A stretch of DNA of 64,000 nucleotides, from positions 1,550,001-1,614,000 of the forward strand of contig NZ_JBGKAD010000001.1 in assembly GCF_041361345.1 (NCBI RefSeq), given 5' to 3'. The position numbers and the translations under genes are program-made. Source of the stretch: Halobaculum sp. MBLA0147 (GTDB taxonomy: Archaea > Halobacteriota > Halobacteria > Halobacteriales > Haloferacaceae). The notes under the pieces were generated by a model. That model ran no database searches and was not told the DNA's origin. It saw only the letters and a list, made by a program, of their open reading frames with translations. Shown here one piece after another: positions 41,691-58,507 of the stretch (position 1 is the stretch's first letter; each line of letters begins with the position of its first letter).

Positions 41691-42140
41691 CTACTCCGCG
41701 TCGAGGTTCGCGTACGCCTCGGCGACCAACTCGCCGGTCTCGTCGACGATCGCGTCCATCGCCTCGGTGTCGGTGTCCAGCCCGAGCAGGCGCGCGATCC
41801 GCATGATCGAGACGTGGTACACCTCCTGGCGATCGGGCTCGACCTCGCGGACGATCACGTTACAGGGGAACAGGCCGCCGATCTGCTCGTCGGTGGCGTC
41901 GAGCGCGCGGTCGGCCATCTCCGGGTTGCACGCCCCGAGGACGTAGTAGGGGTCCCGGTCGGCGTCGATCTTCTCGGCCAGCATCTTCGAGGGCGAGAAC
42001 TCGGTCGCGATCCCGAACCCCGCGTCGAGGAACGCCTCGCGGACGTGTTCGACCGCCGGCTCGTGAGCCATCGCCAGCGTCGCCCGCTTCTCGCCGTAGT
42101 CTGCCGCCGCGACCTGTGTCGGGTCGATGGGAAGTTGCAC
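41691..42140 (-). CDS. DUF302 family protein
   Basis: A 149-aa protein with the DUF302 fold: AVEHVREAFLDAGFGIATEF, YYVLGACNPEMADRALD, EQIGGLFPCNVIVREVEPD, VYHVSIMRIARLLGLDTD. GACNPxxA and LPCNVxV are the defining motifs, with Cys residues that may bind metal or heme in some members. GTG 42140 (VQLPIDPTQVAAADYG) is chosen, with TTTTGTACG (42158-42168) as a TATA-like element about 26 bases away. Function unknown; the family is often near sulfur or redox genes. Confidence 0.85.
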   Translation of the reverse strand: MQLPIDPTQVAAADYGEKRATLAMAHEPAVEHVREAFLDAGFGIATEFSPSKMLAEKIDADRDPYYVLGACNPEMADRALDATDEQIGGLFPCNVIVREVEPDRQEVYHVSIMRIARLLGLDTDTEAMDAIVDETGELVAEAYANLDAE

Positions 42141-42222
42141 ACGCGTCGTTCGGTCGCGGCGTACAAAACGTCGCCGTCGGCTGTCGAGCGCGACTCCCGT
42201 GGTCCTCCTCGTCGGAGGCCCT

Positions 42223-42897
42223 TCACTCCGCGTCGAGAGCGGCGGCGACGGCCTCGCGGAACCGTTCGGCGCGGCGGGTGATCTCGGCGTAGTCTTCGGC
42301 CTCGACGGCGGTGTCGGGGACGAGCGCGGAGCCGGCACCCACCGCGACCGCGCCGGCCTCGAGGAAGTCGCCGGCGTTGTCGGGGGTCACGCCGCCAGTC
42401 GGGAGCATCGGGATCTGCGAGAGCGGGCCCTTCATCGCGGCGACGTGGTCCGGGCCGACGGTCTTCGCGGGGAACACCTTCACCAGATCGGCCCCCTGCT
42501 CGTAGGCGTCGACGGCCTCGGTGGGGGTCATCACACCCGGTGCGACGAGCGCACCGTGGCGGTTGCAGGTGTCGATCACGTCGTCGTGCGAGGACGGGGA
42601 GACCACGAACTCCGCGCCGGCGGCGAGCATCCGCCCGGCGGTGTCGCCGTCGATGACGGTGCCCGCGCCGACGGTGGCCTCCTCGCCCAACTCGTCCGAC
42701 AGCGTGGCGACCATCTCGGCCGCGCCGGGGTTGTCGGCGGTGACTTCGAGGGCCGTCACGCCACCCGCGAGTAGTGCCTCGCCGATCTCGACCAGTGTCT
42801 CCGGGTCGACGCCCCGCAAGACGGCGACGACGCCACTCTCTCGGATCGCGTCGAAGGTGTCGGTACTCACACGCGAGTGAACACCGTCACCGGACAT
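42223..42897 (-). CDS. KDPG/KHG aldolase
   Basis: 2-keto-3-deoxy-6-phosphogluconate aldolase-type class I aldolase, the last step of the semi-phosphorylative Entner-Doudoroff pathway used by haloarchaea. It has 224 aa. The Schiff-base Lys140 lies in QGADLVKVFPAKTVGPDHV, with TALEVTADNPGAAEMVA (Glu51), VGAGTVIDGDTAGRM, FVVSPSSHDDVIDTCNRHG and MLPTGGVTPDNAGDFLEAGA. ATG 42897 gives a 10-residue leader; GTG 42870 (VSTDTFDAIRESGVVA) fits the family start better. The adjacent upstream region is a repeat array, not an operon partner. Confidence 0.9.
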   Translation of the reverse strand: MSGDGVHSRVSTDTFDAIRESGVVAVLRGVDPETLVEIGEALLAGGVTALEVTADNPGAAEMVATLSDELGEEATVGAGTVIDGDTAGRMLAAGAEFVVSPSSHDDVIDTCNRHGALVAPGVMTPTEAVDAYEQGADLVKVFPAKTVGPDHVAAMKGPLSQIPMLPTGGVTPDNAGDFLEAGAVAVGAGSALVPDTAVEAEDYAEITRRAERFREAVAAALDAE

Positions 42898-42989
42898 GAA
42901 GGTGTGGATCGGGCGGAGAGAGCCGCAGCGTCGTGGAGGGCAGTCGACGTGTGTGGGCGGCAGCGGTCAGGGATCCGTTTCGGGTGGAG

Positions 42990-43204
42990 CGCGACGCTCG
43001 TGGGCAGAGACTGTCGGAGCGGTGGTCGGCCGGTGCGGCGTGGTGCGGAGCGGCGTGGTCGCGGAGGCAGGGCGGAGCGGGACGGATCGGCGTGGTCGCG
43101 GAGCGGTGCGGTTGCGGTTGCGGGACGGAGTGGGACGGAGCGGCGTGGTCACGGAGCGGTGCGGTTGCGGAGGCGGGGCGGTTGCGGTGGCGGCGCGGCG
43201 CGGT
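42990..43204 (+). repeat. Degenerate G-rich repeat array
   Basis: Irregular repeats of GCGGAGCGGxGTGGTCGCGG and GAGCGGTGCGGTTGCGG on the plus strand. A shorter array of the same words precedes the second copy of the double-palindrome element (about 58330-58388), so the array and element travel as a unit. Confidence 0.65.
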
Positions 43205-43325
43205 CACCGCCAGCACACCGACCGCGAGCGCGCCCCGCGGGGCGCGCTCGCGGCCCTTTTTGATCGAGCTTTTTTCCTCGGGTGGCCGCCGCAGGCGGCC
43301 ACCCCGAGGAGTGAAAAAGGTCGGT
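43205..43325. repeat. Double-palindrome element, copy 1
   Basis: A 121-base element almost identical to 58389-58507. Palindrome 1 (43224-43251) is a perfect 28-base inverted repeat, GCGAGCGCGCCCCG and its complement. Two T-tracts follow on the plus strand (T5 at 43257-43261, T6 at 43270-43275). Palindrome 2 (43276-43309) pairs CCTCGGGTGGCCGCC with GGCGGCCACCCCGAGG. A5 at 43314-43318 gives T5 on the polD-sense strand. It could act as a bidirectional terminator or be a mobile repetitive element. Confidence 0.85.
43250..43276 (+). terminator. Possible plus-strand terminator (GC hairpin followed by T5 and T6)
   Basis: The perfect GC hairpin ending at 43251 is followed by CCCTTTTTGATCGAGCTTTTTT. 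Archaeal RNA polymerase stops at oligo-T; the hairpin resembles an intrinsic terminator. Which plus-strand transcript would end here is unknown. Confidence 0.4.
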
Positions 43326-43340
43326 GCCGAAGAAGGTCGT

Positions 43341-46300
43341 TTACATGAAGTCCTCGATGCTCGTCGGCTTGTTGTGGTCGTTCTCGAAGATGGACTCCAA
43401 CGAGCGGTCGAGGATCTCCAGTCGTTGTTTCGTGTACTCGCGACAGCCGAACTCCTCGGCGACCTCGCGGGCGGTGTCCATGTACTTGTTCACCGACCCG
43501 CGGTGGACGGTGAGGGTCATGTCGCCGCCACACTCCCGGCAGTCGCCGGTCAGCGGCATCCGGCGGTACTTCTCGCCGCAGTCGAGACACCGCGTCTCCT
43601 GGCTGGAGAACGCCCGGAGGTTGCCGATCAGGTCCGGGAGGAAGTGGTACTCGATGACCCGTTCGGCCACGTCCGTCTCGTCGACGGCCCGCAGCGTCCG
43701 CGAGAGGTTCAGTTGCGCGTCCATCTTGTCCATCATCGAGCCGAGCGTCTTGTACGCCGACAGCGCCGGCCCCATGTGGATGTCCGTCGTGTCGTGAGTG
43801 TGGTCGAACCCGTGGTACTGGTCGTCCGTCCCCAGCGTCTCCTCGGCGATCTGCACGTCGACCGCCTCCGGGTCCGCCTGCTCGCGCGTCGCCTCGTAGA
43901 ACTCGCGCGGGTACCGATCCACGACGTCCATGTTGTGCGCCTCGTCGTCGATCTCCGTCGGGTCGATCCGCGAGGACATCACCAAGGGTGCGTCCATCGA
44001 GTTGTGGGCGTACAGCCAGTTTGCGGTGAAAACCGGGTCCCCGCCGACCTGGAGATCGTACAGGTACCCCTCGTAGTCGGAGCGTTCGACGTTCTCGACT
44101 CTGAGGTACGCGAGATCGCCGTCGACGAGAGGTCGGATCTCGTCGAGAAGCTTCCTAACTCGATTTGCCGTCTCTTCGTTGGCTCGTTGAGCGACGAGTG
44201 TCTCGACATCCGCCACCATCTCGTCGAGTTTCTCCAGCGAGACGTTCTCTCGACGCTTGAGGTACTTCGGGATCGCCTGCTTCACTCCGTCGAGACCCGA
44301 CTCTCTGATCTCGCGTAGTGCGTCGGGAATCGTAACTGTGAGACTCTTCGGACGGTACGGTTCCTCGCCATCGAGAATGCGACGGAGCGGGTTGTCGTCG
44401 CGCCCGCCAGAGACATTGATATTGTAGATCGGCTGACGAGGGTCATCCCGTTCCCGGTAGGAAATGTTGGCGACGATACCGAGTCGGTGAAGTAGAAAGA
44501 CGATCCCGTCTTTCAGTTGCTCGCTCGTCGTGTGGAACGCGACGGTCGTGTGGTTGTCGTCGCTCGTCTCGCTCCCGTCACCGGTTTTGAATCCGCGGAG
44601 GAACGCGAGCGCAACTCGGTCTGGAGCTGTACGGATACACTGTGGAACCACCTTCTCAGAAGAGTCGTAGCTGTCTGCGTCGACGAAACCGAGACTGTAC
44701 AGGAGCTCTCTGAACACCGTCGGGAGGCCTAGCCTGTACGCGTCGTTCGACCAACTCACGTTCGGGTCGTGACCGAGCGTTCGTTCGGTGATTGCCCGTG
44801 CCCGCTCAATCACTTCCTCGTCTGCATTGTTGATGGTCGGTTGAACGCTCGATGTGGATCCCTCGGCCGCGAACAGCCCGAGCAACCACGCAAACTCTTC
44901 GTCCACCTCAACGTGGCGGTCGATTCCGTCGGAGGAACCCTTGATCCCGACGGTGAGGTCCTCGGGTAGAGTGGTTCCCGACTCGTCGGTAATGTCGTCG
45001 AGCGTGTCAGCGTGGACCTTGCGCTTCGAGAGCCGGTAGGCGAGACCACCGTCGAACGCCTCGCGCGTGTCACTTCCCCACTCTGCGTCGTTCCAGACGT
45101 GTTCTAAGTACTCCTCAACGTCGTCGTCGATGAACACGTAGGGGTCACCGAGACGGTCGAGTAAGTCGAGTGTCTTCGACTCCGTCCCGATATCCAGCGA
45201 TTCCGGCGCGAGGATCAGATCTCCCTCAGACAGTTCCTCGCCAGCGACCTCCTCAATCTCACCGTCGTACCGGAACAGGCTGTGATGCTCTGTGACTTCG
45301 AGCGAGCGGCCGAATTGCGTCTCGATACGGACGAGGGACGTGTCGTCTGCTGCCTCGTAACGGATTGCCTTCTCTATCGGACGCAGCGAGGCGCGGTGTG
45401 AGTCGTCGAATGCGTACGTTCGCCACCCCTCACTGCGGCACGTCTTCTTTCGGAACTTGCCGTCGCGTTCGACAGGGCTGTTGAGTCGGTCCCAGAACTC
45501 GTCGAACGTAGTGAACTCGACATCTCCGTCTGGCCCGACCGCCACGAGCCGGGAATCCTCGGCGACACTTCCCCCTCGCTGGTCCGGCAGGTACGTCTTC
45601 GAGAAATTCAGTAGTCCATCCATGAGAAGCATAACACAATCCTCATCACCATCGCAATTTCGCCGCTTGGCCGCGTGGAAGTACGGGTGCGCGTACCCCA
45701 CGGCGGCCGAGGTGAACCCGACGACGCGGCCGACGACGGCGGCGCTCGTGTGGGGGGCCATCCCGAAGACGAGTTCGCCGACGAGGTCGTCGCGTTCGTT
45801 CACCTCGTAGAACGGCTCCAGGTCGTAGAACCGCTCCAGGAGGTCGTCGACGAAGTCGGCAGTCCGCATCATGTGCTGGGCGGCACCCTCCGAGAGCACC
45901 ACGTCCTGGACCTTCAGCTCCACCAGTTGGTCGTCGTGGCGCAGCGGTTCACCGTCGACGTCCGTCTCGTACCCCAACTGTCGGAAGTGGTCGGCCGTCA
46001 CGTCCAACTCCTCCGGTCGGACGGCCGTCACCGGCAGGTCCGTCATGTCGTACCGGACGGTGCCGTCCTTGAACGCCGAGACGCCGTGTTTCGCGCGGAG
46101 CACACCCTTCGCGAGCGGTTCCGGCGTCTTGTCCGCCGAGGAGAGCCCCTTGACTCCCTTGAGGATCTCGTAGCTCCCCTCGCGTTCGCCGATCTCGTCG
46201 AGCGCCGCCGCGAGACGCTCGTTGAGATCGATGGTGAACTGGTCGGGGCTCTCGACCTCGCGGTCACACCGGTCGCAGACGACCCGCCCCGACTCGTCGG

Positions 46301-48503
46301 GTTCGTGGACGGTGCCACACTCCCGACACTCGTAGTACGGCTCCGTGTGCGCGCCACAGTCCGGACAGGCGACCCGGTAGGTGTGGGTGCCACAGTCGGG
46401 ACAGGCGCGCTCGCCGACCCGCGCCTCGATCACGCCGCGGCCGGCGTCGGTGCGGGTGCGCGCCGCCTCGCCGACCGACCGTTGACTCCCACCGGCCTCG
46501 CCGATGGGGAACAGCGTGTGGACCGCCGGCGACAGTTCGCGCGACTCCGACTTCTCCGGGCGGCCCATCCGGTTACCGATCCGCGTCGGCGCCCGCTCGC
46601 GCACGCGGAACGGCGCGATCTCGTTCACCGCACGGATCGCGTTGTCGCCGCCGTCGTACTCGCGGGCCGACTCGGAGAGGTCGGCCAGCGTCCACTCGCG
46701 GGCGAGTCCGTCGGAGACGCCCAGTTGTCGCAGGAGTGGGCGGAACCCCGGCACGCGCAGCGCGTCCGGCGTCTGGGTGTGTTCGACGAGGAGGCGTTCG
46801 AGCACGCGCCGTGTCGTCTCCGTCCGCTCGAAGACGAGCACGTCGCCGGTCACCTCCCCGTCGGCGACGGCCGCGGCGAGCGCGTCCACGTCGGCGACGG
46901 ACACGTCGTGCCAGAGGTAGGTGTACGCCGGGTGCAACGGCGCGTCGTAGTCGGTCGCCCACGACAGCGCCTCGTCGGGCGTCGGCTCGTCAACGGAGAC
47001 CGTCGGGTCGTCGCGCAGCGCCTGCACGTCCGCGCCCGCGTCGGCGAACTCCTGGACCCACCACTCGACGGTGTAGGAGGCCGGGGCGAGCGGGTGGTTG
47101 TTCTCGACGAACTCCCCGTAGTTGACGAGGTACTCGCCCAGGTCGAGGATCTCCTCGACGCCGTTGCGCACGTCGAGTGCCTCCTGTGGGTCGTCGATCC
47201 GACGCACGTCCCCGTTCGCCAGTCGGACGGTCGGCCCCTCGATGGAGTCGACGGGGACGACGCCCGCCGCCTTCCCGGGGCGTTCGGTCTTGATCTGTGT
47301 CCCGGTCGCGAGGAAGTCGTCGACGAGGTGCATCGTCGCCGGGTGGACCCCGGCGGTGGCGAACCCGTGGTTGCGCGCCCGACCGTACCGGAGTCTGAAC
47401 CCCCCGGACTCCGACGGGTGACCGAACACCGGGCGGCCCGCGATCAGGTCCCGCAGGAACTTCTCGCTCGGCTCCGCACGCGGCGGTGTGTCGGCCGCTC
47501 CGCCGTCGCTCTCGTCGCCGTCGTCTCCGTCGCCCGACCCCTCGGCGTCCGTGTCGCCGCTCTCGGTTCCCTCGGCGTCCGTCTCGTCCGCTTCGTCGGT
47601 GGTGTCGTCCCCGTCCTCTCCGTCCGCGTCCTCCTCCCCGCCGTCGTCCTCGTCGGCGTGGTCGTCGTACGTCCCGTCGATCAGGTCCTGGAGCCACGGC
47701 CACTCCACCTCGTCGAGTTGGCGGGTGTACCGCTGGATCTTCGGGGCCTTCAGCGCGATCCCCTCCGCGAGCACGAGACACATCCCGCCGCGGGCGGCGT
47801 TCGTGTCGATCCGTTCCAGGTCGCGGAAGCCGTCGACCTCCCCGTCGGAGGTCGCCTCCCCGTCGAGCATGATCGGGGTGTGTTCCGTGATGAACTTCGT
47901 CTCCTTCGCCTTCGGGGTGTACTGGAGGCCCGTCTCGGAGTCGTAGAGGTCGATCTCCTCGGCGTAGCGCTCGACCTCGTCGTCGCGCGGCCGGAACTCT
48001 TCGACGTCCAACAGCGAGCGGGCGTAGTCGGCGACCAACACGGACAGCGCCTGTGCGGTCCCGCCCGCCGAGCGGATCGGCCCGGCGTAGTAGACGTTGA
48101 CGAACTCCGTCCCGTCGTCGTTCTCGAGGATCTCCACGCGGTCGATCCCCTCGATGGGGGCCGCGACGACACCCTCCGTCAGGAGCGCGACCGCCGTCCG
48201 GACGGCCCCCTCGACCTTCCCGGCACGAGAGTCGAAGTCGCCGACGGTCCCCTCGACGAAGTCCGTGACGAGTTCGAGCGCCGCCTCCTCGCGGGACATC
48301 TCGCCCTCCAGTTCGCGGACGCGCTCGGCGACGCCGTCGATGCCGAGGATGTTCTCGACTCTGTCGGCCATGTCGCGGGCGACCGGGATCTCGATCTCCG
48401 TCTCCGGGTCGCGGCCGCGCTCCTTCGCGGCGGTCGCGCGGGCGAAGGCCTCGTCCAGTTCGTCCTCGATCCGTTCGAAGTAGCGCTCGTCGTCGGGTCT
48501 CAC
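43341..48503 (-). CDS. polC: DNA polymerase D large subunit (DP2) with in-frame intein
   Basis: Catalytic subunit of the archaeal replicative polymerase PolD. The precursor is 1720 aa, and after removal of a 523-residue intein the mature protein is 1197 aa. N-terminal strings MADRVENILGIDGVAERVRE and YYAGPIRSAGGTAQALSVLV are diagnostic. An acidic low-complexity insertion lies at about residues 280-345. Zinc-binding clusters are CPDCGTHTYRVACPDCGAHT, YECRECGTVHE and near the C-terminus CLDCGEKYRRM with CRECGGDM. The catalytic metal-binding motif RNCDGDED (Asn949, Asp951, Asp953) lies 26 residues before the intein. GTG start 48503. The small subunit DP1 is not in the window. Confidence 0.95.
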   Translation of the reverse strand: MRPDDERYFERIEDELDEAFARATAAKERGRDPETEIEIPVARDMADRVENILGIDGVAERVRELEGEMSREEAALELVTDFVEGTVGDFDSRAGKVEGAVRTAVALLTEGVVAAPIEGIDRVEILENDDGTEFVNVYYAGPIRSAGGTAQALSVLVADYARSLLDVEEFRPRDDEVERYAEEIDLYDSETGLQYTPKAKETKFITEHTPIMLDGEATSDGEVDGFRDLERIDTNAARGGMCLVLAEGIALKAPKIQRYTRQLDEVEWPWLQDLIDGTYDDHADEDDGGEEDADGEDGDDTTDEADETDAEGTESGDTDAEGSGDGDDGDESDGGAADTPPRAEPSEKFLRDLIAGRPVFGHPSESGGFRLRYGRARNHGFATAGVHPATMHLVDDFLATGTQIKTERPGKAAGVVPVDSIEGPTVRLANGDVRRIDDPQEALDVRNGVEEILDLGEYLVNYGEFVENNHPLAPASYTVEWWVQEFADAGADVQALRDDPTVSVDEPTPDEALSWATDYDAPLHPAYTYLWHDVSVADVDALAAAVADGEVTGDVLVFERTETTRRVLERLLVEHTQTPDALRVPGFRPLLRQLGVSDGLAREWTLADLSESAREYDGGDNAIRAVNEIAPFRVRERAPTRIGNRMGRPEKSESRELSPAVHTLFPIGEAGGSQRSVGEAARTRTDAGRGVIEARVGERACPDCGTHTYRVACPDCGAHTEPYYECRECGTVHEPDESGRVVCDRCDREVESPDQFTIDLNERLAAALDEIGEREGSYEILKGVKGLSSADKTPEPLAKGVLRAKHGVSAFKDGTVRYDMTDLPVTAVRPEELDVTADHFRQLGYETDVDGEPLRHDDQLVELKVQDVVLSEGAAQHMMRTADFVDDLLERFYDLEPFYEVNERDDLVGELVFGMAPHTSAAVVGRVVGFTSAAVGYAHPYFHAAKRRNCDGDEDCVMLLMDGLLNFSKTYLPDQRGGSVAEDSRLVAVGPDGDVEFTTFDEFWDRLNSPVERDGKFRKKTCRSEGWRTYAFDDSHRASLRPIEKAIRYEAADDTSLVRIETQFGRSLEVTEHHSLFRYDGEIEEVAGEELSEGDLILAPESLDIGTESKTLDLLDRLGDPYVFIDDDVEEYLEHVWNDAEWGSDTREAFDGGLAYRLSKRKVHADTLDDITDESGTTLPEDLTVGIKGSSDGIDRHVEVDEEFAWLLGLFAAEGSTSSVQPTINNADEEVIERARAITERTLGHDPNVSWSNDAYRLGLPTVFRELLYSLGFVDADSYDSSEKVVPQCIRTAPDRVALAFLRGFKTGDGSETSDDNHTTVAFHTTSEQLKDGIVFLLHRLGIVANISYRERDDPRQPIYNINVSGGRDDNPLRRILDGEEPYRPKSLTVTIPDALREIRESGLDGVKQAIPKYLKRRENVSLEKLDEMVADVETLVAQRANEETANRVRKLLDEIRPLVDGDLAYLRVENVERSDYEGYLYDLQVGGDPVFTANWLYAHNSMDAPLVMSSRIDPTEIDDEAHNMDVVDRYPREFYEATREQADPEAVDVQIAEETLGTDDQYHGFDHTHDTTDIHMGPALSAYKTLGSMMDKMDAQLNLSRTLRAVDETDVAERVIEYHFLPDLIGNLRAFSSQETRCLDCGEKYRRMPLTGDCRECGGDMTLTVHRGSVNKYMDTAREVAEEFGCREYTKQRLEILDRSLESIFENDHNKPTSIEDFM
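44001..45569 (-). other. PolD large-subunit intein with LAGLIDADG homing endonuclease
   Basis: Protein-splicing element occupying residues 979-1501 of the precursor. It starts with Ser (GG/SVAEDSRLVAV) and ends YAHN, with Ser as the first residue of the C-extein (SMDAPLV), so splicing uses serines at both junctions. Block B is EVTEHHSLF (intein residues 91-99). The endonuclease motifs are LLGLFAAEG (229-237) and LRGFKTGDG (324-332). Block F/G is YEGYLYDLQ to NWLYAHN. The DNA is less GC-rich than the exteins. Both endonuclease motifs keep their acidic residue (Glu236 and Asp331), so activity is possible. Confidence 0.93.
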
Positions 48504-48777
48504 GCTGTCTCCCCCGGAACCGGCGACACCCGGACGACACCCACCGGCGTCGCCGGCTCTCGTCGTGTCACGTCAGCCTACTGCGCCCCGCCTCGACAAA
48601 AGTCGTGTGCCTCGGGCGACGCCCGCCACCACCTTCGCGGCGACACCACGTCACTGTCGAGACCGGTCGCGTCGGAGCAGTGCGACGACCGCAGCGTCGG
48701 GCCCGGAACCGGCCGCATCCGGCCGCGTCCCCGCGTCGTCCCCGGGTTTCCACTTCCACTCCGCGTGCCACCGCCAT

Positions 48778-48786
48778 CTTAAATAC
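48778..48786 (+). promoter_or_regulatory. rpa3 TATA box
   Basis: CTTAAATAC is a strong archaeal TATA box about 62 bases upstream of ATG 48844, giving a 5' leader of roughly 35 bases. Confidence 0.65.
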
Positions 48787-48827
48787 CATCGGGAACCAAC
48801 CACCGTACGCCTCCCACTCGAAACACC

Positions 48828-48833
48828 AGGAGG
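48828..48833 (+). promoter_or_regulatory. rpa3 Shine-Dalgarno site
   Basis: AGGAGG lies 10 bases before ATG 48844. A leadered mRNA with a strong site is unusual beside the many leaderless genes of this window and fixes the start. Confidence 0.7.
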
Positions 48834-48843
48834 CAGGAGAACC

Positions 48844-49773
48844 ATGGCAGACTTGCGAACCCACGCGGAAGAGATCAGTGCGCAGTTCTCGGACCACATA
48901 GACGTCGGTCCCGACGAGGTACACGAACGACTGGAGACGCTCGTCGACGAGTACAGCGTCCCCGTCGAGGAGGCGCGTCGCAGTGTCACGAGTTCCTACC
49001 TTGACGAGGCGGGACTCGAGCGCGACGACCTCGCACCCGGCGGGAGCGAGGAGACGCTCGTCGGCGACATCGAGGCGGACGAGGAGTGGGTGGACCTGGA
49101 GGTCCAGGTGGCGGACCTCTGGGAGCCACGCCACGAGTCCATCGCACAGGTCGGCCTGCTCGGCGACGAGTCGGGGACGATCAAGTTCGTCGCGTTCGCG
49201 ACGAGCGACCTCCCGGAACTGGAGGAGGGTGCCAGCTACGCGCTCGGCAACGTCGTCACCGACGAGTACGAGGGCGACTACTCGGTGAAGCTCAACCGGA
49301 CGACGACGATCACGGAGCTCGACGAGCCCGTCGAGATCGGCGAGGACGCCGTCGAGATCGAGGGCGCGCTCGTCGACCTCCAGTCCGGCTCGGGGCTGAT
49401 CAAGCGGTGTCCCGAGGAGGGGTGTACGCGGACCCTCCAGAACGGCCGGTGTTCCGAACACGGCCAGGTCGACGGGGAGTTCGACCTCCGCGTCAAGGCG
49501 GTGTTGGACGACGGCGACACCGTCCAGGAGGTGATCTTCGACGAGGAGGCGACGGAGCGGCTCGCGGGGATCGACCTCGCGGAGGCCAAACAGATGGCCC
49601 AGGACGCACTCGACACCACCGTCGTCGAGGAGGAGATCGCGACCACCATCACCGGTCGCTACTACCGGGTGCGAGGCCCGGAGTTCGGCCGGTACGTGCT
49701 GGCCGACGAGTTCACCGAGCTGAGCGAGGCACCGGACGCCGAACAGACGCTGATCCGAGCGAGGTCGATCTGA
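48844..49773 (+). CDS. rpa3: Replication protein A, Rpa3-type single-stranded DNA-binding protein
   Basis: Binds single-stranded DNA in replication and repair. It has 309 aa. The N-terminal helical part (DEVHERLETLVDEYSVPVEE) precedes an OB fold (WVDLEVQVADLWEPRHESIA, QVGLLGDESGTIKFVAFATS, DEYEGDYSVKLNRTTTITEL). A C4/C3H zinc finger, CPEEGCTRTLQNGRCSEHG, leads to a second OB-like domain (FDLRVKAVLDDGDTVQEVIF). Coupling to an Rpap-type gene without a following phosphoesterase gene matches the rpa3-rpap3 operon of Haloferax rather than rpa1-rpap1-rpe. Confidence 0.9.
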   Translation: MADLRTHAEEISAQFSDHIDVGPDEVHERLETLVDEYSVPVEEARRSVTSSYLDEAGLERDDLAPGGSEETLVGDIEADEEWVDLEVQVADLWEPRHESIAQVGLLGDESGTIKFVAFATSDLPELEEGASYALGNVVTDEYEGDYSVKLNRTTTITELDEPVEIGEDAVEIEGALVDLQSGSGLIKRCPEEGCTRTLQNGRCSEHGQVDGEFDLRVKAVLDDGDTVQEVIFDEEATERLAGIDLAEAKQMAQDALDTTVVEEEIATTITGRYYRVRGPEFGRYVLADEFTELSEAPDAEQTLIRARSI

Positions 49774-49774
49774 C

Positions 49775-50401
49775 ATGAGCAGTGTTCCATCCCGCGAAGT
49801 CGCCCGCCGCGTCTTCGCGACCGAGTACAACGACGGGAGTCACACGTTCAAAGAGTCCGAGGACGAGCGCGCGCCGCTGTACCTGCTGCTCCCGACGGGG
49901 GAGCGGGCCAACCGCGTGTTCTTCGTGGGGACGCTCACCGAGACGGAGGATCTCGGCGACGACAGCGAGTACTGGCGTGGTCGCATCGTCGACCCCACGG
50001 GGACGTTCTTCGTGTACGCCGGCCAGTACCAGCCCGAGGCGGCCTCGGCGCTACGGGACCTGGAGCCGCCGGCGTACGTCGCGGTCGTCGGCAAGCCCCG
50101 GACGTTCGAGGCGGACGACGGGACGATCAACGTCTCCGTCCGTCCGGAGTCCATCTCCGAGGTGTCCGCGGCCGCACGCGACCGCTGGGTGGTCGAGACC
50201 GCCGAGCGGACCCTCGACCGGATCGAGGCGTACGACGACGAGGCCAACGAGTACGGGCGGATGGCTCGCGAGCGATACGATCTCCCGACGGAACGCTACC
50301 GGGAGGCGACCGTCGCCGCCCTGGAGTCGCTCGACGAGGGGGACGAACTCGGCGGCGACACCGACGCCGCCGACGAGACGGAACCCGAGCCGACGCCGTG
50401 A
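49775..50401 (+). CDS. rpap3: RPA-associated protein Rpap3
   Basis: Partner of Rpa3, encoded one base after its stop codon. It has 208 aa: PSREVARRVFATEYNDGSHT, YLLLPTGERANRVFFVGTLT and WRGRIVDPTGTFFVYAGQYQ form an OB-fold domain, then LRDLEPPAYVAVVGKPRTFE and INVSVRPESISEVSAAARDR. A helical C-terminus (RWVVETAERTLDRIEAYDDE) and an acidic tail follow. In Haloferax these proteins form a complex with their cognate RPA and are needed for DNA damage resistance. Confidence 0.88.
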   Translation: MSSVPSREVARRVFATEYNDGSHTFKESEDERAPLYLLLPTGERANRVFFVGTLTETEDLGDDSEYWRGRIVDPTGTFFVYAGQYQPEAASALRDLEPPAYVAVVGKPRTFEADDGTINVSVRPESISEVSAAARDRWVVETAERTLDRIEAYDDEANEYGRMARERYDLPTERYREATVAALESLDEGDELGGDTDAADETEPEPTP

Positions 50402-50481
50402 GGTGACCCCCGAACGGCGCTATCACCGCCGATAGTCGTCTGACGAACGTTGAAGTAGCGAGCGACCACAACGTGTGCCAA

Positions 50482-50940
50482 ATGGGCAAGAAGGACAAGA
50501 CGATCTCCTTCCGGGTGAGCCAGGAGGCGTTCGAGTCACTCCAGGAGATCGCCGACGAGCGCGACCTGTCGCTGTCGGCGCTGTTCCGCGACTACGTCGA
50601 CGCGCTGGTGGCACACGACGGCCAGGTGGAGGTGGTGCCAGACCACGCGGTCGACGAGTCGGCGGCCGAGGACGACGAGCCGACGTTCCCGCCGCGCGTC
50701 ACCGTCCCGAAGGGGTTCGTCCGCGAACACGAACGGCTGGAGTTGGAGGCCGACCACCTCCGCGAGCAACTGGAGGAGTACCGCCAGTACGTCACGCACC
50801 TCCACGACAGACTCGACGACGAGGACGACGAGGACGTGGTGTTCTTGGAGGAGTTGGACGGCGACGGCGGCGACGAGGAGTCACTCGACGACGGCTTCGA
50901 GATCGAGACGGACGAGCGTTACCGCGTCGGGCGCGAGTAG
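50482..50940 (+). CDS. Ribbon-helix-helix regulator with coiled coil
   Basis: A 152-aa protein. The N-terminal 45 residues, KTISFRVSQEAFESLQEIAD then LSLSALFRDYVDALV, form a CopG/RHH DNA-binding domain. An EREHERLELEADHLREQLEE-like helical region (residues 85-115) suggests a coiled-coil oligomerisation segment, and the tail is very acidic. ATG 50482 is preferred over GTG 50473. It follows rpap3 by 80 bases on the same strand, the same neighbour arrangement as in other haloarchaea. Targets unknown. Confidence 0.78.
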   Translation: MGKKDKTISFRVSQEAFESLQEIADERDLSLSALFRDYVDALVAHDGQVEVVPDHAVDESAAEDDEPTFPPRVTVPKGFVREHERLELEADHLREQLEEYRQYVTHLHDRLDDEDDEDVVFLEELDGDGGDEESLDDGFEIETDERYRVGRE

Positions 50941-51002
50941 TCGCACTGCGAGTCGCGGGACGCCGTACCGTCTCACCCGCGTGGTCGACGACGGCCGAGG
51001 AC

Positions 51003-51458
51003 TCAGCCGGTGAGCGCGTCGCGTGCCTCGCGGGCCTTCCGGGCCATCTCGTCGTCACCCTCCACTTCCGCGAGCGACTCGACGGCCTCCAGCGTGCGGA
51101 CCGCCGAGTCGAGAAAGGAGAGTACGTCCCCGGAGTAGGCGTACAGCATGTAGTCGTCGCCCATCACGTCGACGATGGCGTCCGGACCGAACCCCTGTGC
51201 GCGCAACTCCAGGAGGTACTGGACGAACTTCCGCTCCGGGTGGCCGCAGTAGGGGTTGTCCTGACAGTCGCAGTCGAGGAAGTCCTCGGCGAACTCGAGC
51301 AGCCGGTCGCGGGTGGACTCGTCGACCTCCGCGAGCCCGTCGCCGGTGAACACCAGATCCAGCGTCGCCCCCTTGAACGCACCCTTCGGCACGTTCGTGT
51401 CGAGTTGAGAGGCGATCTGTCGGTGGTTCTTCAGGTAGATCTTGTCCGTGATCGCCAC
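51003..51458 (-). CDS. Conserved haloarchaeal protein with a Cys-rich centre
   Basis: A 151-aa protein from GTG 51458. It begins AITDKIYLKNHRQIASQLDT, then VPKGAFKGATLDLVFTGDGL. A cysteine cluster, FLDCDCQDNPYCGHPERKFV (four Cys/His-type ligands), suggests zinc or iron-sulfur binding. The C-terminal half is helical (QYLLELRAQGFGPDAIVDVM; DDYMLYAYSGDVLSFLDSAV). It reads like a strongly conserved family in haloarchaea, but I cannot assign a function. Convergent with the RHH gene. Confidence 0.7.
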   Translation of the reverse strand: MAITDKIYLKNHRQIASQLDTNVPKGAFKGATLDLVFTGDGLAEVDESTRDRLLEFAEDFLDCDCQDNPYCGHPERKFVQYLLELRAQGFGPDAIVDVMGDDYMLYAYSGDVLSFLDSAVRTLEAVESLAEVEGDDEMARKAREARDALTG

Positions 51459-51575
51459 TGGTGGGACTCGATAGGCTCGTTCGGTACAAGAACGCGACGG
51501 TGTCGTCGCTCGGGCGGCCACGGGGGCCGTCGCGAGGCTCGCGGCCGATCTCGGGTGATCGGACCCTCGTCGCAC

Positions 51576-52910
51576 TCAGGCGGCCGACCCGCCGAACACG
51601 TCCGCGTCCTCGGTGTCGTCCGCCGTCGACGGACCGTCCGTGTCGGCGGTCTGTGCGTCTGCGCCGGCCGCCTCGACCAGCGGGAGGTCGACGACGAACA
51701 CGGCGCCACCGTCACTCGCCCGCTCCGCGTCGAACTGCGGGACACCCTCCCGGTCGTGCGCCCACACCTCGCCGCCGAGTCCGTCGACGATCGTGTCGAC
51801 GACGTTGAGTCCCGCCGCCGTCCCCGGTTCGTCGTGGTCGAACAGCGTGCGGTCCGCTGTGGGGCCGAGCCCGGGGCCGTCGTCGGCGACGGTGATCCGT
51901 GCCACGTCGTCGACGCACTCGAGCCCGACGCGGACGACCGGATCGTCGCGGTCGTGGTGTTCGACGGCGTTCTCCAGCAGGTTGTCGACCACCGGCCGCA
52001 GTGACTCGTTGGCTCGCACGGACAACCCCTCCGTGAGCGCCGTCTCGACGGTGAGCCCACCGAACGAGCGGCGTGCGGAGTCGACCGCCGGTCGGAGCAG
52101 TTCGGCCGGGTCGACCGGCGTCTGCTCGGCGTCGCCCGCGACCGCCTCCACGACTGCACGGGCCTGCTCCGTCCGGTCGACGACGGTCTGGGCCCGTTCC
52201 TTCAGCGTCGCCGCCGTCTCCGGCTCGCCGACACGCTCGGCGTAGCCGGCGATCACGTTCGCGTCGTTGCGCACGTCGTGGCGTAACATCCCGTTGACGA
52301 ACGCCAAGGCGTCCCGGACGCGCGCCACCTCGCGAGCCTCGCGTCTGGCACGCGCTCGGTACACGCCGCCGACGGCGCCCGCGAGGTAGCCCGCGCCGAG
52401 CGTCGTCGCCAGCAGGAACGTCGGCTCCGAGACGACGCGTCCCTCGGCGAGCCGGATCAGGATCGTCCCGGTCACCGCCAGCCCGAACGCCAGACTGCCG
52501 CCGACGCCGAACAGCGTCACCGTGCCGCGGTCCGTCGTGTCGAACGCCGACCGCGCGAGCCAGACGCCGACGCCGACGACGCCGAGTGCCAGCGTCCCGT
52601 CGAGTGCGAACGCCGCGAGCGGACCCGACAACTGGTCGATGGCGACCGTCTCGCGGACCAGGTGGTGGTACGCCGTCAGCCCGACGAGCGTCACGCCGTA
52701 CAACAGCGTCACGGCGACTGGCGGGTCGAGGCAGACCCCGTCGTCCGTCCCGCGAGTGCCGGACCCGATCCGACCCGCGTGCCCGTGGTCGTCGATCGCG
52801 GTCGCGTGTCTGTCACTAGAGTCGGACGGGCCGTCCGCGTCCGGTCGCTCGCGCGGGTCCGCTCCCCGCACGGATCGCTCGTCGTCTCGTGTACCCCGCT
52901 CGTCCCCCAT
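51576..52910 (-). CDS. Membrane-bound histidine kinase
   Basis: A 444-aa kinase. After an acidic leader of about 60 residues come about four membrane spans (PPVAVTLLYGVTLVGLTAYH; LAAFALDGTLALGVVGVGVW; VTLFGVGGSLAFGLAVTGTI; FLLATTLGAGYLAGAVGGVY). The H-box is NGMLRHDVRNDANVIAGYAE with His at about 210. The ATPase has VDNLLENAVEHHDRDDP, ITVADDGPGLGPTADRTLFD and AAGLNVVDTIVDGLGGEVWA. ATG 52910 is selected because CTTTTCGA (about 52936-52943, minus strand) lies about 28 bases before it. No adjacent regulator; the nearest is the HalX protein at 55236. Confidence 0.83.
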   Translation of the reverse strand: MGDERGTRDDERSVRGADPRERPDADGPSDSSDRHATAIDDHGHAGRIGSGTRGTDDGVCLDPPVAVTLLYGVTLVGLTAYHHLVRETVAIDQLSGPLAAFALDGTLALGVVGVGVWLARSAFDTTDRGTVTLFGVGGSLAFGLAVTGTILIRLAEGRVVSEPTFLLATTLGAGYLAGAVGGVYRARARREAREVARVRDALAFVNGMLRHDVRNDANVIAGYAERVGEPETAATLKERAQTVVDRTEQARAVVEAVAGDAEQTPVDPAELLRPAVDSARRSFGGLTVETALTEGLSVRANESLRPVVDNLLENAVEHHDRDDPVVRVGLECVDDVARITVADDGPGLGPTADRTLFDHDEPGTAAGLNVVDTIVDGLGGEVWAHDREGVPQFDAERASDGGAVFVVDLPLVEAAGADAQTADTDGPSTADDTEDADVFGGSAA

Positions 52911-53045
52911 TCGATCGACAGACTCGGGCAGCCGTCGAAAAGCTGGCGATGCGTCCGCCACGTGGCCGATCGTCGCCGTCGAGACGACGCCGCGACACTG
53001 GGTGGACGCCCGTCGTGTGAGTCCGTCTCGCCCTCGTCGGGAGTC

Positions 53046-53055
53046 GTAACGTACT
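53046..53055 (+). promoter_or_regulatory. Possible tRNA-His promoter
   Basis: GTAACGTACT lies about 33 bases before the tRNA 5' end, within the range for archaeal tRNA TATA boxes. Confidence 0.35.
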
Positions 53056-53083
53056 TGTCCGGAACGGCTGTACCGGTGAGTGT

Positions 53084-53155
53084 GTCCGGGTTGGGGTAGT
53101 GGTATCCTTCAGCCTTGTGGGGGCTGAGACGCGGGTTCAATTCTCGCACCCGGAC
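53084..53155 (+). tRNA. tRNA-His (anticodon GTG), G-1 encoded
   Basis: The cloverleaf can be folded by eye. Acceptor TCCGGGT pairs with ACCCGGA, D-arm GGGT...TCCT, anticodon stem CAGCC/GGCTG with loop TTGTGGG (anticodon GTG), variable AGAC, T-arm GCGGG/CTCGC with loop TTCAATT. The extra 5' G (53084) faces the discriminator C (53155), the G-1:C73 identity pair of tRNA-His. No CCA is encoded and no intron is present. One D-stem pair (T-T) is a mismatch. Confidence 0.93.
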
Positions 53156-53258
53156 CTCCTCTCGACGCGACTCGGTCAGTCGTGGGTGTGCCGACGCTCG
53201 TCGTCCGGCGTGTCGCGTCTCGACTACCACCTACCGGGCGGTGTCGGCCGCGCACCGA

Positions 53259-54428
53259 CTACCGTCTCCCGGGCGGTGTCGGTCGCTCGCCGACCCCGCC
53301 GACGCGACCGCCGCGACGGATGATGTCGAACGCGGTCATCAGGTCCGTCCGCGAGACGAGGCCGGTCAGGTCCCCGTGCTCGTCGACGACGACCAGTCGG
53401 CCGACACCACGTCGTTGCATCGCCTGGAGCGCGTCCATCGCGTCCGTGTCTGGCCGCACGCTCGCGACCTCCGTCGCCATCACGTCGCTCACCGTGTAGG
53501 CGCTCTGTTCGACCTCGCGGACGCGCTCGGTGTCCTCCAGTGTCACCATCCCGACGAGGTGGCCGCCGTCGATCACGGGGTAGCCGGTGTGACGCTCTCG
53601 GACCATCTTGTCGAGCAGCGCCGCGACGGAGGTGTCGGGGGAGACCGTCTTCACCGCCGGTGCGGGCGTCATCACGTCCCCGACACGCACGTCCTGGAGT
53701 GCGGCCTGGATCGCGGTCTGTTGGGCCTCTCCGGAGGCGGCGACGTAGACGAACAACGCCAGTCCGACGATCAGCCAGTCGCGGCCGAGTAGTCCGAGCA
53801 GGCCGAGTCCGACCGCGAACACCTTCCCCACGTCGGCGGCGATCTTCGTCGCCTTCGGGTACGAGTAGCTGCTGGCCAGCAGGGCGCGCAACACCCGACC
53901 GCCGTCCATCGGGAAGCCGGGCAGCATGTTGAACGCCGCGAGCACCACGTTCGTCGCCGCGAGGTACGCGAGGACGAACGCGACCGGAGCCGGCGACGGG
54001 ACCGCCAGGACGACTGCCCCGAAGCCGACGCCGAGCAGGACGCTCACTGCCGGGCCGGCGACGGCGATCACCAACTCCGCGCGCCAGTCGTCCGGGTTCT
54101 CCTCGAACTGCGCGACGCCGCCGAACAGCCACAGCGTGATCGACTCGATCCCGTAGCCGTACCGGCGGGCCGTCAACGAGTGGCCGAACTCGTGACACAG
54201 CACGGAGACGAACAGCCCGACGGCGGCGACGGCGCCGAGCACGAGTGGACGGAGGCCGCCGTCGAGTGTCCCCGTCGCGATCGACAGCCCGAACAGGTCG
54301 TTGAGCGGGGCGACGAGCGCGCCCACCTGCTGGCCGATCAGCCAGGCGAACACCGGCAGGATCACCAGGAACGTCCAGTTCAACTGGATCGGGATCCCGG
54401 CGACGCGGCCGACACGGATGCCACGCAT
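53259..54428 (-). CDS. Site-2 protease family (M50) metalloprotease with CBS domains
   Basis: A 389-aa intramembrane zinc protease. HExxH is seen as LCHEFGHSLTARRYG (His79, Glu80, His83), and the third ligand region is AAFNMLPGFPMDGGRVLRAL. About six spans surround them (LVILPVFAWLIGQQVGALVA; LVIAVAGPAVSVLLGVGFGA; LIVGLALFVYVAASG). From about residue 245 two CBS motifs follow (VRVGDVMTPAPAVKTVSPDT; YTVSDVMATEVASVRPDTDA), which may sense adenine nucleotides. Such proteins release membrane-tethered regulators. The cluster of Pro/Gly/Arg at the C-terminus is odd. Confidence 0.9.
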   Translation of the reverse strand: MRGIRVGRVAGIPIQLNWTFLVILPVFAWLIGQQVGALVAPLNDLFGLSIATGTLDGGLRPLVLGAVAAVGLFVSVLCHEFGHSLTARRYGYGIESITLWLFGGVAQFEENPDDWRAELVIAVAGPAVSVLLGVGFGAVVLAVPSPAPVAFVLAYLAATNVVLAAFNMLPGFPMDGGRVLRALLASSYSYPKATKIAADVGKVFAVGLGLLGLLGRDWLIVGLALFVYVAASGEAQQTAIQAALQDVRVGDVMTPAPAVKTVSPDTSVAALLDKMVRERHTGYPVIDGGHLVGMVTLEDTERVREVEQSAYTVSDVMATEVASVRPDTDAMDALQAMQRRGVGRLVVVDEHGDLTGLVSRTDLMTAFDIIRRGGRVGGVGERPTPPGRR

Positions 54429-54545
54429 ACCTCGAACTCCGTCCCGGCGGGGGATAAACTCGTGTGGTGAGTCGGGTCCTCGGCTGTCGTGTGAGCGCTC
54501 CCACCGACCCAGGGCTTGAAACGGTCGCCCGACCCATCGACGGGT

Positions 54546-55181
54546 ATGGGAGACACCGCAGACACGAACGACGGCACGGACACGACCGGCGAGACGGGGC
54601 CCGCAGAGACGGGTGGAGCCGAGACGGCTACGGAGACGGGTGGAGCCGAGACGGCTACGGAGACGGGTGGAGCCGAGACGACTGCGGAGACGGGGAGAGC
54701 AGAGACGACTGCGGAGACGGGGGGAGCAGAGACGGCTACGGAGACGGGGGCAGCAGAGACGACTGCGGAGACGGGGGGAGCAGAGACGACGGCGGGTGGG
54801 AGGTCGACCACACCGCCGACCCCGGTCGTCGTCGACGGCGACGACGTGACCTACGAGGCCGTCGACGCGGCGGCGGGGCTGTCGAAGGGTGTGTTGCTCG
54901 ACGAGTCGGACGGCGCCCCACACTTCGCGCTCCGACGGTTCGTCCTCGACCCGGGCGCCGAGGTACCGCGCCACACCAACGCCGTCGAACACGAACAGTA
55001 CGTGCTCTCTGGCGAGTACACGGTCGGGATCGACGACACGGAACACACCGTGACGGCCGGTGACGCACTCCTGATCCCCGCGGGTGTCGTCCACTGGTAC
55101 CGCAACGAGAGCGACGAGCCCGGCGCGTTCCTCTGTGCGGTCCCGAACGGAGACGACACCATCGAACTCGTCGAGGAGTAG
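54546..55181 (+). CDS. Cupin-domain protein with N-terminal tandem repeats
   Basis: A 211-aa protein from ATG 54546. Residues 1-22 are acidic, 23-85 are six 9-residue repeats of the type GAETATETG and a partial one, and about 100-205 form a single cupin: HFALRRFVLDPGAEVPRHTN, VEHEQYVLSGEYTVGIDDTE, AGDALLIPAGVVHWYRNESD. Metal ligands would be the two His and Glu of the first motif and His of the second. The repeats are probably a disordered, highly acidic arm. Function unknown; related stand-alone cupins bind small organic ligands. Confidence 0.75.
   Translation: MGDTADTNDGTDTTGETGPAETGGAETATETGGAETATETGGAETTAETGRAETTAETGGAETATETGAAETTAETGGAETTAGGRSTTPPTPVVVDGDDVTYEAVDAAAGLSKGVLLDESDGAPHFALRRFVLDPGAEVPRHTNAVEHEQYVLSGEYTVGIDDTEHTVTAGDALLIPAGVVHWYRNESDEPGAFLCAVPNGDDTIELVEE
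54615..54797 (+). repeat. 27-base coding tandem repeat
   Basis: Six full 27-base units (54615-54641, 54642-54668, 54669-54695, 54696-54722, 54723-54749, 54750-54776) and a partial one encode (G/R/A)AET(A/T)(T/A)ETG. The first two units are identical in DNA; later ones alternate GCTACG with ACTGCG. Confidence 0.88.
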
Positions 55182-55235
55182 TCCGCGAGCGAACCACGAG
55201 CGGCACCCGTCGTCGACGCGTGTGGCGGGTCGCGG

Positions 55236-55811
55236 TCAGATCCGGCCGAGTGTCCGCCGGATGTCGCCGACGTCCATCTCGTCCAAGGCGGCGTCCGTCT
55301 CGTCGGCGACGGCCTCGTACCGCTCGCGGAGTCGGTCGTACGCCTCCGAGTCGGCCAACTCCGAGGGCGAGAGGTGTTCCGACAACAGCGCGCACTTCCG
55401 GGCGAGCGTGAACTCCTCGCGGACGGCGTCCTCGTACGTCCGGAGCCGGGCGAGGGTGTGTGTCACCTCCAGCAGCTCCTCGTGGTGGACCGGCTTCACG
55501 AGGTAGGTGTCGAACGGCAGCGACACCACGTCCTCGTCGGGCGAGACGGCCGTCACCATCCCGACGGCACAGTCGTAGCCGGCGTCACGGACGTGTCGCA
55601 ACACGTCGTCGCCCGAGAACCCCGGCATCCGCCGGTCCAACAACACCACGTCCACGTCCTCGTCGACCGCCGCGACCGCCTCCTGGCCTCCGGCGGCGAC
55701 CGTCGGCTCGAACGTCTCGTCCGTCGACAGGTGCCCGGCGTACGTCTCTGCCACGTCCCGCTCGTCGTCGACGACGAGGACGGACACCGTCTCCCCAGTT
55801 CCGGTACCCAT
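55236..55811 (-). CDS. HalX-type response regulator
   Basis: A 191-aa regulator. The receiver domain (residues 8-120) has VSVLVVDDERDVAETYAGHL acidic pocket, phospho-acceptor Asp59 in VDVVLLDRRMPGFSGDDVLR, MVTAVSPDED and the conserved Lys in DTYLVKPVHHEEL. The C-terminal helical HalX domain (EEFTLARKCALLSEHLSPSE; YDRLRERYEAVADETDAALD) is found only in haloarchaeal regulators and has no DNA-binding motif. ATG 55811. It is a candidate partner for one of the histidine kinases in this window. Confidence 0.87.
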   Translation of the reverse strand: MGTGTGETVSVLVVDDERDVAETYAGHLSTDETFEPTVAAGGQEAVAAVDEDVDVVLLDRRMPGFSGDDVLRHVRDAGYDCAVGMVTAVSPDEDVVSLPFDTYLVKPVHHEELLEVTHTLARLRTYEDAVREEFTLARKCALLSEHLSPSELADSEAYDRLRERYEAVADETDAALDEMDVGDIRRTLGRI

Positions 55812-55965
55812 ACGGACGCCAGTTGGCCAGCACCAGTCTTCACACTTTCGTCGCTCACTGGGTGTACCGTCCGGTCGCCGTCGTGGAGACGACGGTCGGA
55901 GGCACCACACCGCTCGCGACCCGAACGTATCAAGTGGCCGCTGCGCGTACCGGAGACGACGACAC

Positions 55966-58002: not shown

Positions 58003-58507
58003 GTCGGGAGAGAGCGCGCCGCCCCACGGTAGTCGTCTCGTGTTCGGGGGAGGGCCGGAGCGTGTGAGTCCGGCCACGACCGCGACACGGACGACGGCGA
58101 CCGTGGGGAACGACGGGCCGTCGCCGCTAGTGAGTACTGGTGACTGTCAGGATTTAACGTTAACTCCCCAGTTCGCAGTTCCGAGAGCCGGCGGCGGTGT
58201 GTCGAGTGGTGGCGGTGGGTCGCCGGGTGGCGTCGGTGGCCGGCCGTGGTGGTGTAGGCGGACAGACGACTGCGCGCGGGCAGGCAGGCGTGCACTCGGG
58301 CGGGCGGCGACTGGTGTGGGAGATCACCCACGAGCGGTGCGGTCGCGGAGGCGGGAGCGGTGCGGTCGCGGAGGCGGTGCGGTGCGGCCACCGCCAGCAC
58401 ACCGACCGCGAGCGCGCCCCGGGGCGCGCTCGCGGCCCTTTTTGGTCGAGCTTTTTTCCTCGGGTGGCCGCCGCAGGCGGCCACCCCGAGGAGTGAAAAA
58501 GGTCGGT
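58003..58507. other. 505-base region between convergent helicase and arlJ genes
   Basis: No gene is supported. TTTAACGTTAA (58153-58163) is the only AT-rich spot and contains the palindrome TTAACGTTAA; it could be a promoter for a plus-strand transcript running through a G-rich array (about 58330-58388) into the terminator-like double-palindrome element at 58389-58507. Confidence 0.6.
58389..58507. repeat. Double-palindrome element, copy 2
   Basis: Matches 43205-43325 over 119 bases with one substitution (TTTTTGGTCG for TTTTTGATCG) and a 2-base deletion exactly at the centre of palindrome 1, which keeps that palindrome perfect (26 bases here). It abuts the arlJ stop codon directly. A5 at 58496-58500 gives T5 in the arlJ sense immediately after the gene. 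Confidence 0.88.

Follow-up and report, generated by a model that had tools for sequence, protein, structure and literature searches.

A dispersed, covarying two-hairpin element at haloarchaeal gene boundaries and its probable role as a two-way transcription terminator

The window, the 64,000-nucleotide stretch of DNA analysed here (G000:C1:1550001-1614000), belongs to C1, a 3.0-Mb contig from a haloarchaeal genome, and contains two copies of a compact element that combines two hairpins with short T- and A-tracts. We consider this element to be, on the evidence of comparative sequence analysis, probably a dispersed two-way transcription terminator or boundary element of haloarchaea. Its anatomy, covariation, distribution, flush placement against genes and recurrence at the same genes could be established directly. 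If the reading is right, a class-wide covarying hairpin/U-tract unit at stop codons and core promoters would constitute a structured haloarchaeal boundary element, offering both a test of what hairpins contribute to archaeal termination and a gene-end marker for annotation. Searches of open-access papers turned up no description of the element.

Anatomy and covariation of the element

Read on the plus strand, the constant unit consists of hairpin 1, T5, eight bases, T5-6, hairpin 2 and A5. In copy 1, hairpin 1 (43222-43253, plus) has 14 pairs, and across other copies its stems vary yet stay paired. It is preceded by a CAGCAC-like leader (43206-43221, plus) that is similar in many copies of the genus and weakly conserved elsewhere. 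The first T-tract (T5, 43257-43261, plus) is kept in the aligned genus copies and in class-wide loci, and the second (T6, 43270-43275, plus) doubles as the 5′ side of the hairpin 2 outer stem, pairing with the A-tract. Folding and covariation define the GC-rich core of hairpin 2 (43276-43309, plus). Beyond it lies A5 on the plus strand, which is T5C on the minus strand (43314-43318), 22-26 bp past the polC stop codon, and then the outer clamp with the element end (43321-43325, plus), where TCG pairs with CGA at 43265-43267. The preliminary description had ended the possible RNA at 43276; hairpin 2, its flanking T/A tracts and the outer clamp belong to the element, whose end is at 43325. Copy 2 (58406-58507, plus) is 97% identical to copy 1, with hairpin 1 at 58406-58435, T5 at 58439-58443, T6 at 58452-58457, hairpin 2 at 58458-58491 and A5 at 58496-58500.

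Two palindromes, the second bearing an inverted clamp, lie within about 105-120 bp. Copy 1 stems are formed by Watson-Crick pairs only, and the fold energy has a z of about -7 against dinucleotide shuffles on either strand. The order of hairpin then T-tract is found on the plus strand only (hairpin 1 to T5); on the minus strand, T5 precedes hairpin 2. A search of positions 42000-59500 against Rfam 15 at E up to 1 gave no match to the element, the sole match being a tRNA at 53085-53155. Two copies have the element end partly repeated (GAAGAAGGTCG), at 43326-43340 and at locus L015, which adds ~15 bp before the stop codon. Five loci in G001 and G002 (L034, L039, L063, L066 and L067) carry variants in which an extra hairpin separates hairpin 1 from the first T-tract.

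The stems, the T:A stretch and the three-base outer clamp all covary. Across 90 aligned matches from other genera, 97.1% of alignment cells are paired versus 72.0% after shuffling, and changes on both sides of a pair account for 337 cells versus 114 shuffled; slid controls were 46-59% paired. For the clamp, statistics were limited to elements outside the window's genus, since within it the parser set T6 against A5 out of register: the triplet pairs fully in 88% of 103 such elements (permuted mean 38.5%, maximum 53% in 1000 permutations), and its variants change in step, as CGA/TCG, CCA/TGG, GCA/TGC, GGA/TCC and GTA/TAC. The length of the second T-run equals that of the A-run in 91 of the 103 elements, where 59 would be expected. 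Hairpin 2 is conserved as a fold: in its outer stem the second T-tract is paired to the A-tract, and a three-base clamp closes this stem.

Mismatches within the stems are informative about the strand that folds. Outside the genus, the ratio of G-A to C-T mismatches on the plus strand is 215:9 for hairpin 1 and 71:4 for hairpin 2, and tandem GA/GA pairs occur 132 times versus 2 for tandem C-T. Stacking of tandem G-A pairs is favourable in RNA and single-stranded DNA; since this applies to one strand only, and such pairs are found on the plus strand, it is the plus strand that should fold. The ratio of G-T to A-C in hairpin 2 (14:4) agrees with this, whereas in hairpin 1 (10:35) it is the opposite of what a plus-strand RNA predicts, a discrepancy that comes partly from a conserved A/C flank and remained after trimming. 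Upstream of hairpin 1, the only sign of a common terminal motif was a weak C-N-A-G (47/87).

Spread and placement against genes

The constant unit is haloarchaea-wide. There are 28 element copies in the genome, all on C1 and none on C2-C6, leaving out of the count three extra short or weak partial matches. Covariance model R1 was built from alignment A1 (48 copies from three genomes of the window's genus), with the variant elements that carry an additional hairpin excluded. It matched 84 of 148 genomes and 22 of 28 genera in the family, and 151 of 194 genomes and 58 of 65 genera of Halobacteria, with E-values that are rough. In a phylum sample 26 of 196 genomes matched, and all 26 lie inside the class; genomes outside it are mostly unlisted, and their lower G+C could contribute. 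Alignment A2, fitted to the model, includes about ten weak secondary matches. G003, of the same genus as the window, has no element copy.

Copy 1 follows polC, the gene for the DNA polymerase II large subunit with an intein (43341-48503, minus; Pfam PolC_DP2, Intein_splicing and LAGLIDADG_3), with 15 bp from element end to stop codon. Its neighbour on the array side, a KDPG/KHG aldolase gene (42223-42897, minus), points away. Copy 2 abuts a type II secretion F-domain protein gene (58508-60265, minus) and has a helicase gene (55966-58002, plus) on its left. The suggestion that a plus-strand transcript would be antisense to the flanking genes applies to copy 1, where both neighbours are on the minus strand, but not to the left side of copy 2, where the helicase gene is on the plus strand.

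The side that is fixed relative to a gene is that of hairpin 2 and not that of the array. In a family set of 18 genomes from other genera, 48 copies have the hairpin-2 side towards the 3′ end of a gene and 12 have it towards a 5′ end. The stop codon lies at -1 to 7 bp in 42 of the 48, and 9 of the 12 sit 33-46 bp upstream of the start, a distance that roughly matches the beginning of a leaderless core promoter. For the copies of this genome, 15 of 18 stops are at 2-5 bp and 7 of 9 starts at 38-46 bp; the copy listed at 228 bp directly follows tRNA-Leu. Among 40 class-wide loci, chosen as high-scoring matches and not as a random sample, the hairpin-2 side is at a gene 3′ end in 28, of which 22 are at -2 to 5 bp, and the hairpin-1 side is 8 bp or less from a stop in 6. 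Divergent gene pairs flank 3 of the 27 scored copies of this genome. In most copies the minus-strand T5 is a few bp from the stop, so that a run of at least four T downstream of the gene is present. Gene calls came from our own caller, with codon usage trained on this genome and used unchanged for other genera. The regular-expression parser for placement kept 27 of the 28 copies here, missing the one at 1211239 (first T-tract TTCTT), and 9 of about 17 in G002. At one locus (L089 9899-10153, G000 C1 1869699-1869953) one intergenic region, bounded by a tRNA-Leu and a gene convergent with it, contains two elements that face each other, the hairpin 2 of each adjoining the gene on its side.

The same genes recur with the element. 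Indeed, polC carries it in G000, G001, G002, G009 and G029, which represent three genera, and further gene groups do likewise. The array-side neighbour of polC differs among G000, G001 and G002 and the element is kept, so the element travels with polC. Its sequence follows a different pattern: similarity at orthologous genes between genomes is 0.75 versus 0.747 for unrelated copies, and within one genome it averages 0.82 and reaches about 0.92 here. Because copies at orthologous sites are no closer than unrelated ones and copies within a genome are closer, this homogenisation points to gene conversion or repeated replacement. Since the same genes retain the element while each genome homogenises its copies, one may ask whether terminators can spread or convert each other.

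The G-rich array

On the side away from the gene, copy 1 has a G-rich tandem array (43031-43205, plus; TRF period 53 bp, 3.3 copies, 81% matches) within a looser G-rich stretch that begins at ~42890, its extent being measured in 20-bp steps; TRF places the array of copy 2 at 58332-58387 (plus). The order of array, hairpin 1, T5 and T6 given in the preliminary description is thus present at both copies. Copy 1 has a GCGG count of 22 in the 200 bp before hairpin 1 and a G-skew of 0.42. Over the 28 copies, the 200 bp upstream of hairpin 1 hold 21.9 GCGG words on average, versus a background of 2.73 (16,898 windows, sd 1.98, maximum 15). The count is above the background maximum in 23 copies and above the mean plus 3 sd in three more (9, 10 and 15), and is not raised in two, at 1869702 and 2382335 (counts 4 and 0). 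The further loci of array plus element that had been anticipated are therefore found in this genome, with GCGG enriched upstream of 26 of the 28 copies, and the array is not confined to the window. G-skew, too, is positive for 26 of the 28 when read along the plus strand of the element.

A 20-base array word has 34 exact matches in the genome, 32 of which adjoin a copy on the same strand; at the remaining two (1180684/1180695) no element was seen. The longest exact repeats have a median of 23 within one array versus 16 between arrays, which argues for growth mostly by local tandem duplication. In this genome array length ranges from absent to about 680 bp, often extending to the neighbouring gene. 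Two other genera (G009 and G016) have G-rich arrays of the same polarity and different words, while three copies each in G117, G121 and G093 have none, and the array is missing at most inspected copies in other genera. The array is best seen as filler peculiar to certain lineages, which lengthens through tandem duplication on the flank opposite the gene; it looks like spacer DNA and not like a new RNA gene.

Two other roles for the array were dropped. As stated in the preliminary description, no frame in it is coding: the gene caller calls no gene there. A 3′ UTR of the array-side gene was rejected on the mixed orientation of that neighbour, which in the family set points toward and away from the element in a ratio of 30:30. 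In this genome it points toward the element in 17 of 26 scored copies and away in 9. The class-wide set has a ratio of 29:9 toward the element, so a partial link to the array-side gene remains there. Elsewhere in the window, strong tandem repeats of 24 and 27 bp occur at 19730-19973 and 54606-54795; their periods are divisible by three, so they are possibly coding.

Proposed termination and competing explanations

Accounts of archaeal termination usually centre on a U-tract and aCPSF1 and treat hairpins as optional. On the plus strand, hairpin 1 and the two U-tracts would stop polymerases that arrive from the array side, which could spare the hairpin-2-side gene from antisense transcription or a core promoter from interference. 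On the minus strand, T5C just past the stop codon would end that gene's own transcript. Hairpin 2 may serve as back-up, as protection of the RNA end or as a DNA structure, and the G-rich array may slow the incoming polymerase. Two-way termination would account for both placements, at the stop codon and at the core promoter. T5C terminates 95% in H. volcanii (PMC7237163), M. maripaludis aCPSF1 binds two-U-tract terminators best and these terminate best (PMC8716108), and an upstream hairpin is not strictly required in archaea (PMC8716108, PMC7237163). Several observations weigh against two-way termination. There is no hairpin upstream of the minus-strand T5, and a simple terminator could do without hairpin 2, which comes after both of the plus-strand T-tracts. 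The ten plasmid copies examined do not abut genes, some chromosomal copies lie between divergent genes, and homogenisation within genomes is as in a mobile repeat. Finally, A-C exceed G-T mismatches on the plus strand of hairpin 1, and copy 1 has its 15-bp gap.

One rival explanation, possible although we consider it unlikely, is a PATE- or REP-like, non-autonomous mobile element whose plus strand, with its two hairpins, moves in single-stranded form, the flush placement being left by selection and any terminator effect being secondary. Many dispersed copies, a one-strand structure with tandem G-A pairs, the similarity values given above and tandem duplicates with gene tails would all fit, as would the plasmid copies. 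Ten of the latter were examined among the plasmid matches (hosts Natrinema, Natronococcus, Haloterrigena turkmenica pHTUR03, Natronobeatus, Natrononativus and Haloferax alexandrinus). The nearest annotated gene is ~94 bp away by the PLSDB gene tables, which are incomplete; our own gene calls agree that the copies are not flush where the element end was parsed. A conserved unit of ~170-180 bp is common to 9 of the 10, and two copies are near transposases. Haloquadratum PATEs have near-terminal palindromes without terminal repeats or target duplication (PMC3119063). Mobility does not readily explain the exact fit, on one side, to stop codons or core promoters, the recurrence of the same genes across genera, or a conserved T5/A5 pairing with a covarying clamp. 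Furthermore, no strain-level pair of filled and empty sites was found; the element-free sites (G003 at polC and at the copy 2 site, G001 at the copy 2 site) are too diverged to show insertion. Homogenisation and the non-flush plasmid copies nevertheless keep a mobile origin in play, and mobile origin and termination can both be true. We tentatively entertain such a combination, a haloarchaea-wide portable terminator: a repeat, spreading or gene-converted in each genome, that would set two-way gene boundaries. Its plus-strand hairpins would owe their stability to tandem G-A pairs, which would make them strong as a single strand but weak as a DNA palindrome or when formed by the opposite strand. 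In some genera, a G-rich run that expands by itself would stall incoming polymerase ahead of the double U-tract.

The preliminary description favoured a plus-strand non-coding RNA gene, with the array as body and hairpin 1 plus T-tracts as 3′ end. The terminator half of that proposal survives as a prediction, through the conserved T-tracts and pairing; the RNA body is not supported, and we regard such a gene as very improbable. The array-hairpin-T order in 26 of 28 copies, the plus-strand structure and the same-polarity arrays of two other genera speak for it. Against it, the array varies from 0 to about 680 bp without a conserved start, no TATA-like word was found between array-side gene and array in 27 scorable copies with two word patterns, elements without an array occur in other genera, and the window gave no Rfam match to the element. 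Array variability and the missing TATA-like word make the RNA reading weak, and with arrays missing from most inspected copies in other genera it was dropped. Very improbable, too, is a DNA-level structure, such as a cruciform or a site for a chromatin or replication protein, that marks gene boundaries. Compensatory changes that keep the palindromes and the strict gene-edge position would suit it, but tandem G-A pairs favour one strand, and stems that are free to vary in sequence make a sequence-specific binder unlikely.

The element shares features with several known systems. Like archaeal aCPSF1/FttA U-tract terminators (PMC8716108, PMC7237163), it has two T-tracts on the plus strand and T5C on the minus strand directly after a stop codon; it differs in its two covarying hairpins, paired T/A tracts, outer clamp and fixed gene-flush position. 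Haloquadratum walsbyi PATEs (PMC3119063) are also short, dispersed, palindromic and non-coding, without clear terminal repeats, but the present element is set apart by flush gene position, conserved T/A tracts and same-gene recurrence, with no insertion polymorphism seen. Bacterial REP/BIME sequences (PMC12306157) are likewise multicopy intergenic palindromes, often after stop codons, and differ in sequence and architecture; our element is without a known partner transposase.

Bacterial bidirectional intrinsic terminators usually have the order A-tract, hairpin, T-tract. They resemble the element in serving two genes with a palindrome and T-tracts, whereas here there are two hairpins, and the T-tract comes before hairpin 2 and the A-tract after it.

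Some loci deserve separate mention. In G003, which lacks the element, a convergent gene ends right at the polC stop codon (L116, C62). At L162 (G012) and L173 (G059) a gene 3′ tail is duplicated after the element, and at L262 (G234) two identical element copies lie about 220 bp apart. Element pairs or triplets at fixed spacing occur in G148, G152, G167 and G171. On plasmids (L320-L327, L329) the element sits at about 648-830, away from genes, within the ~170-180 bp unit and with a GGCGTTACCGCTGCGGTCG-like block upstream.
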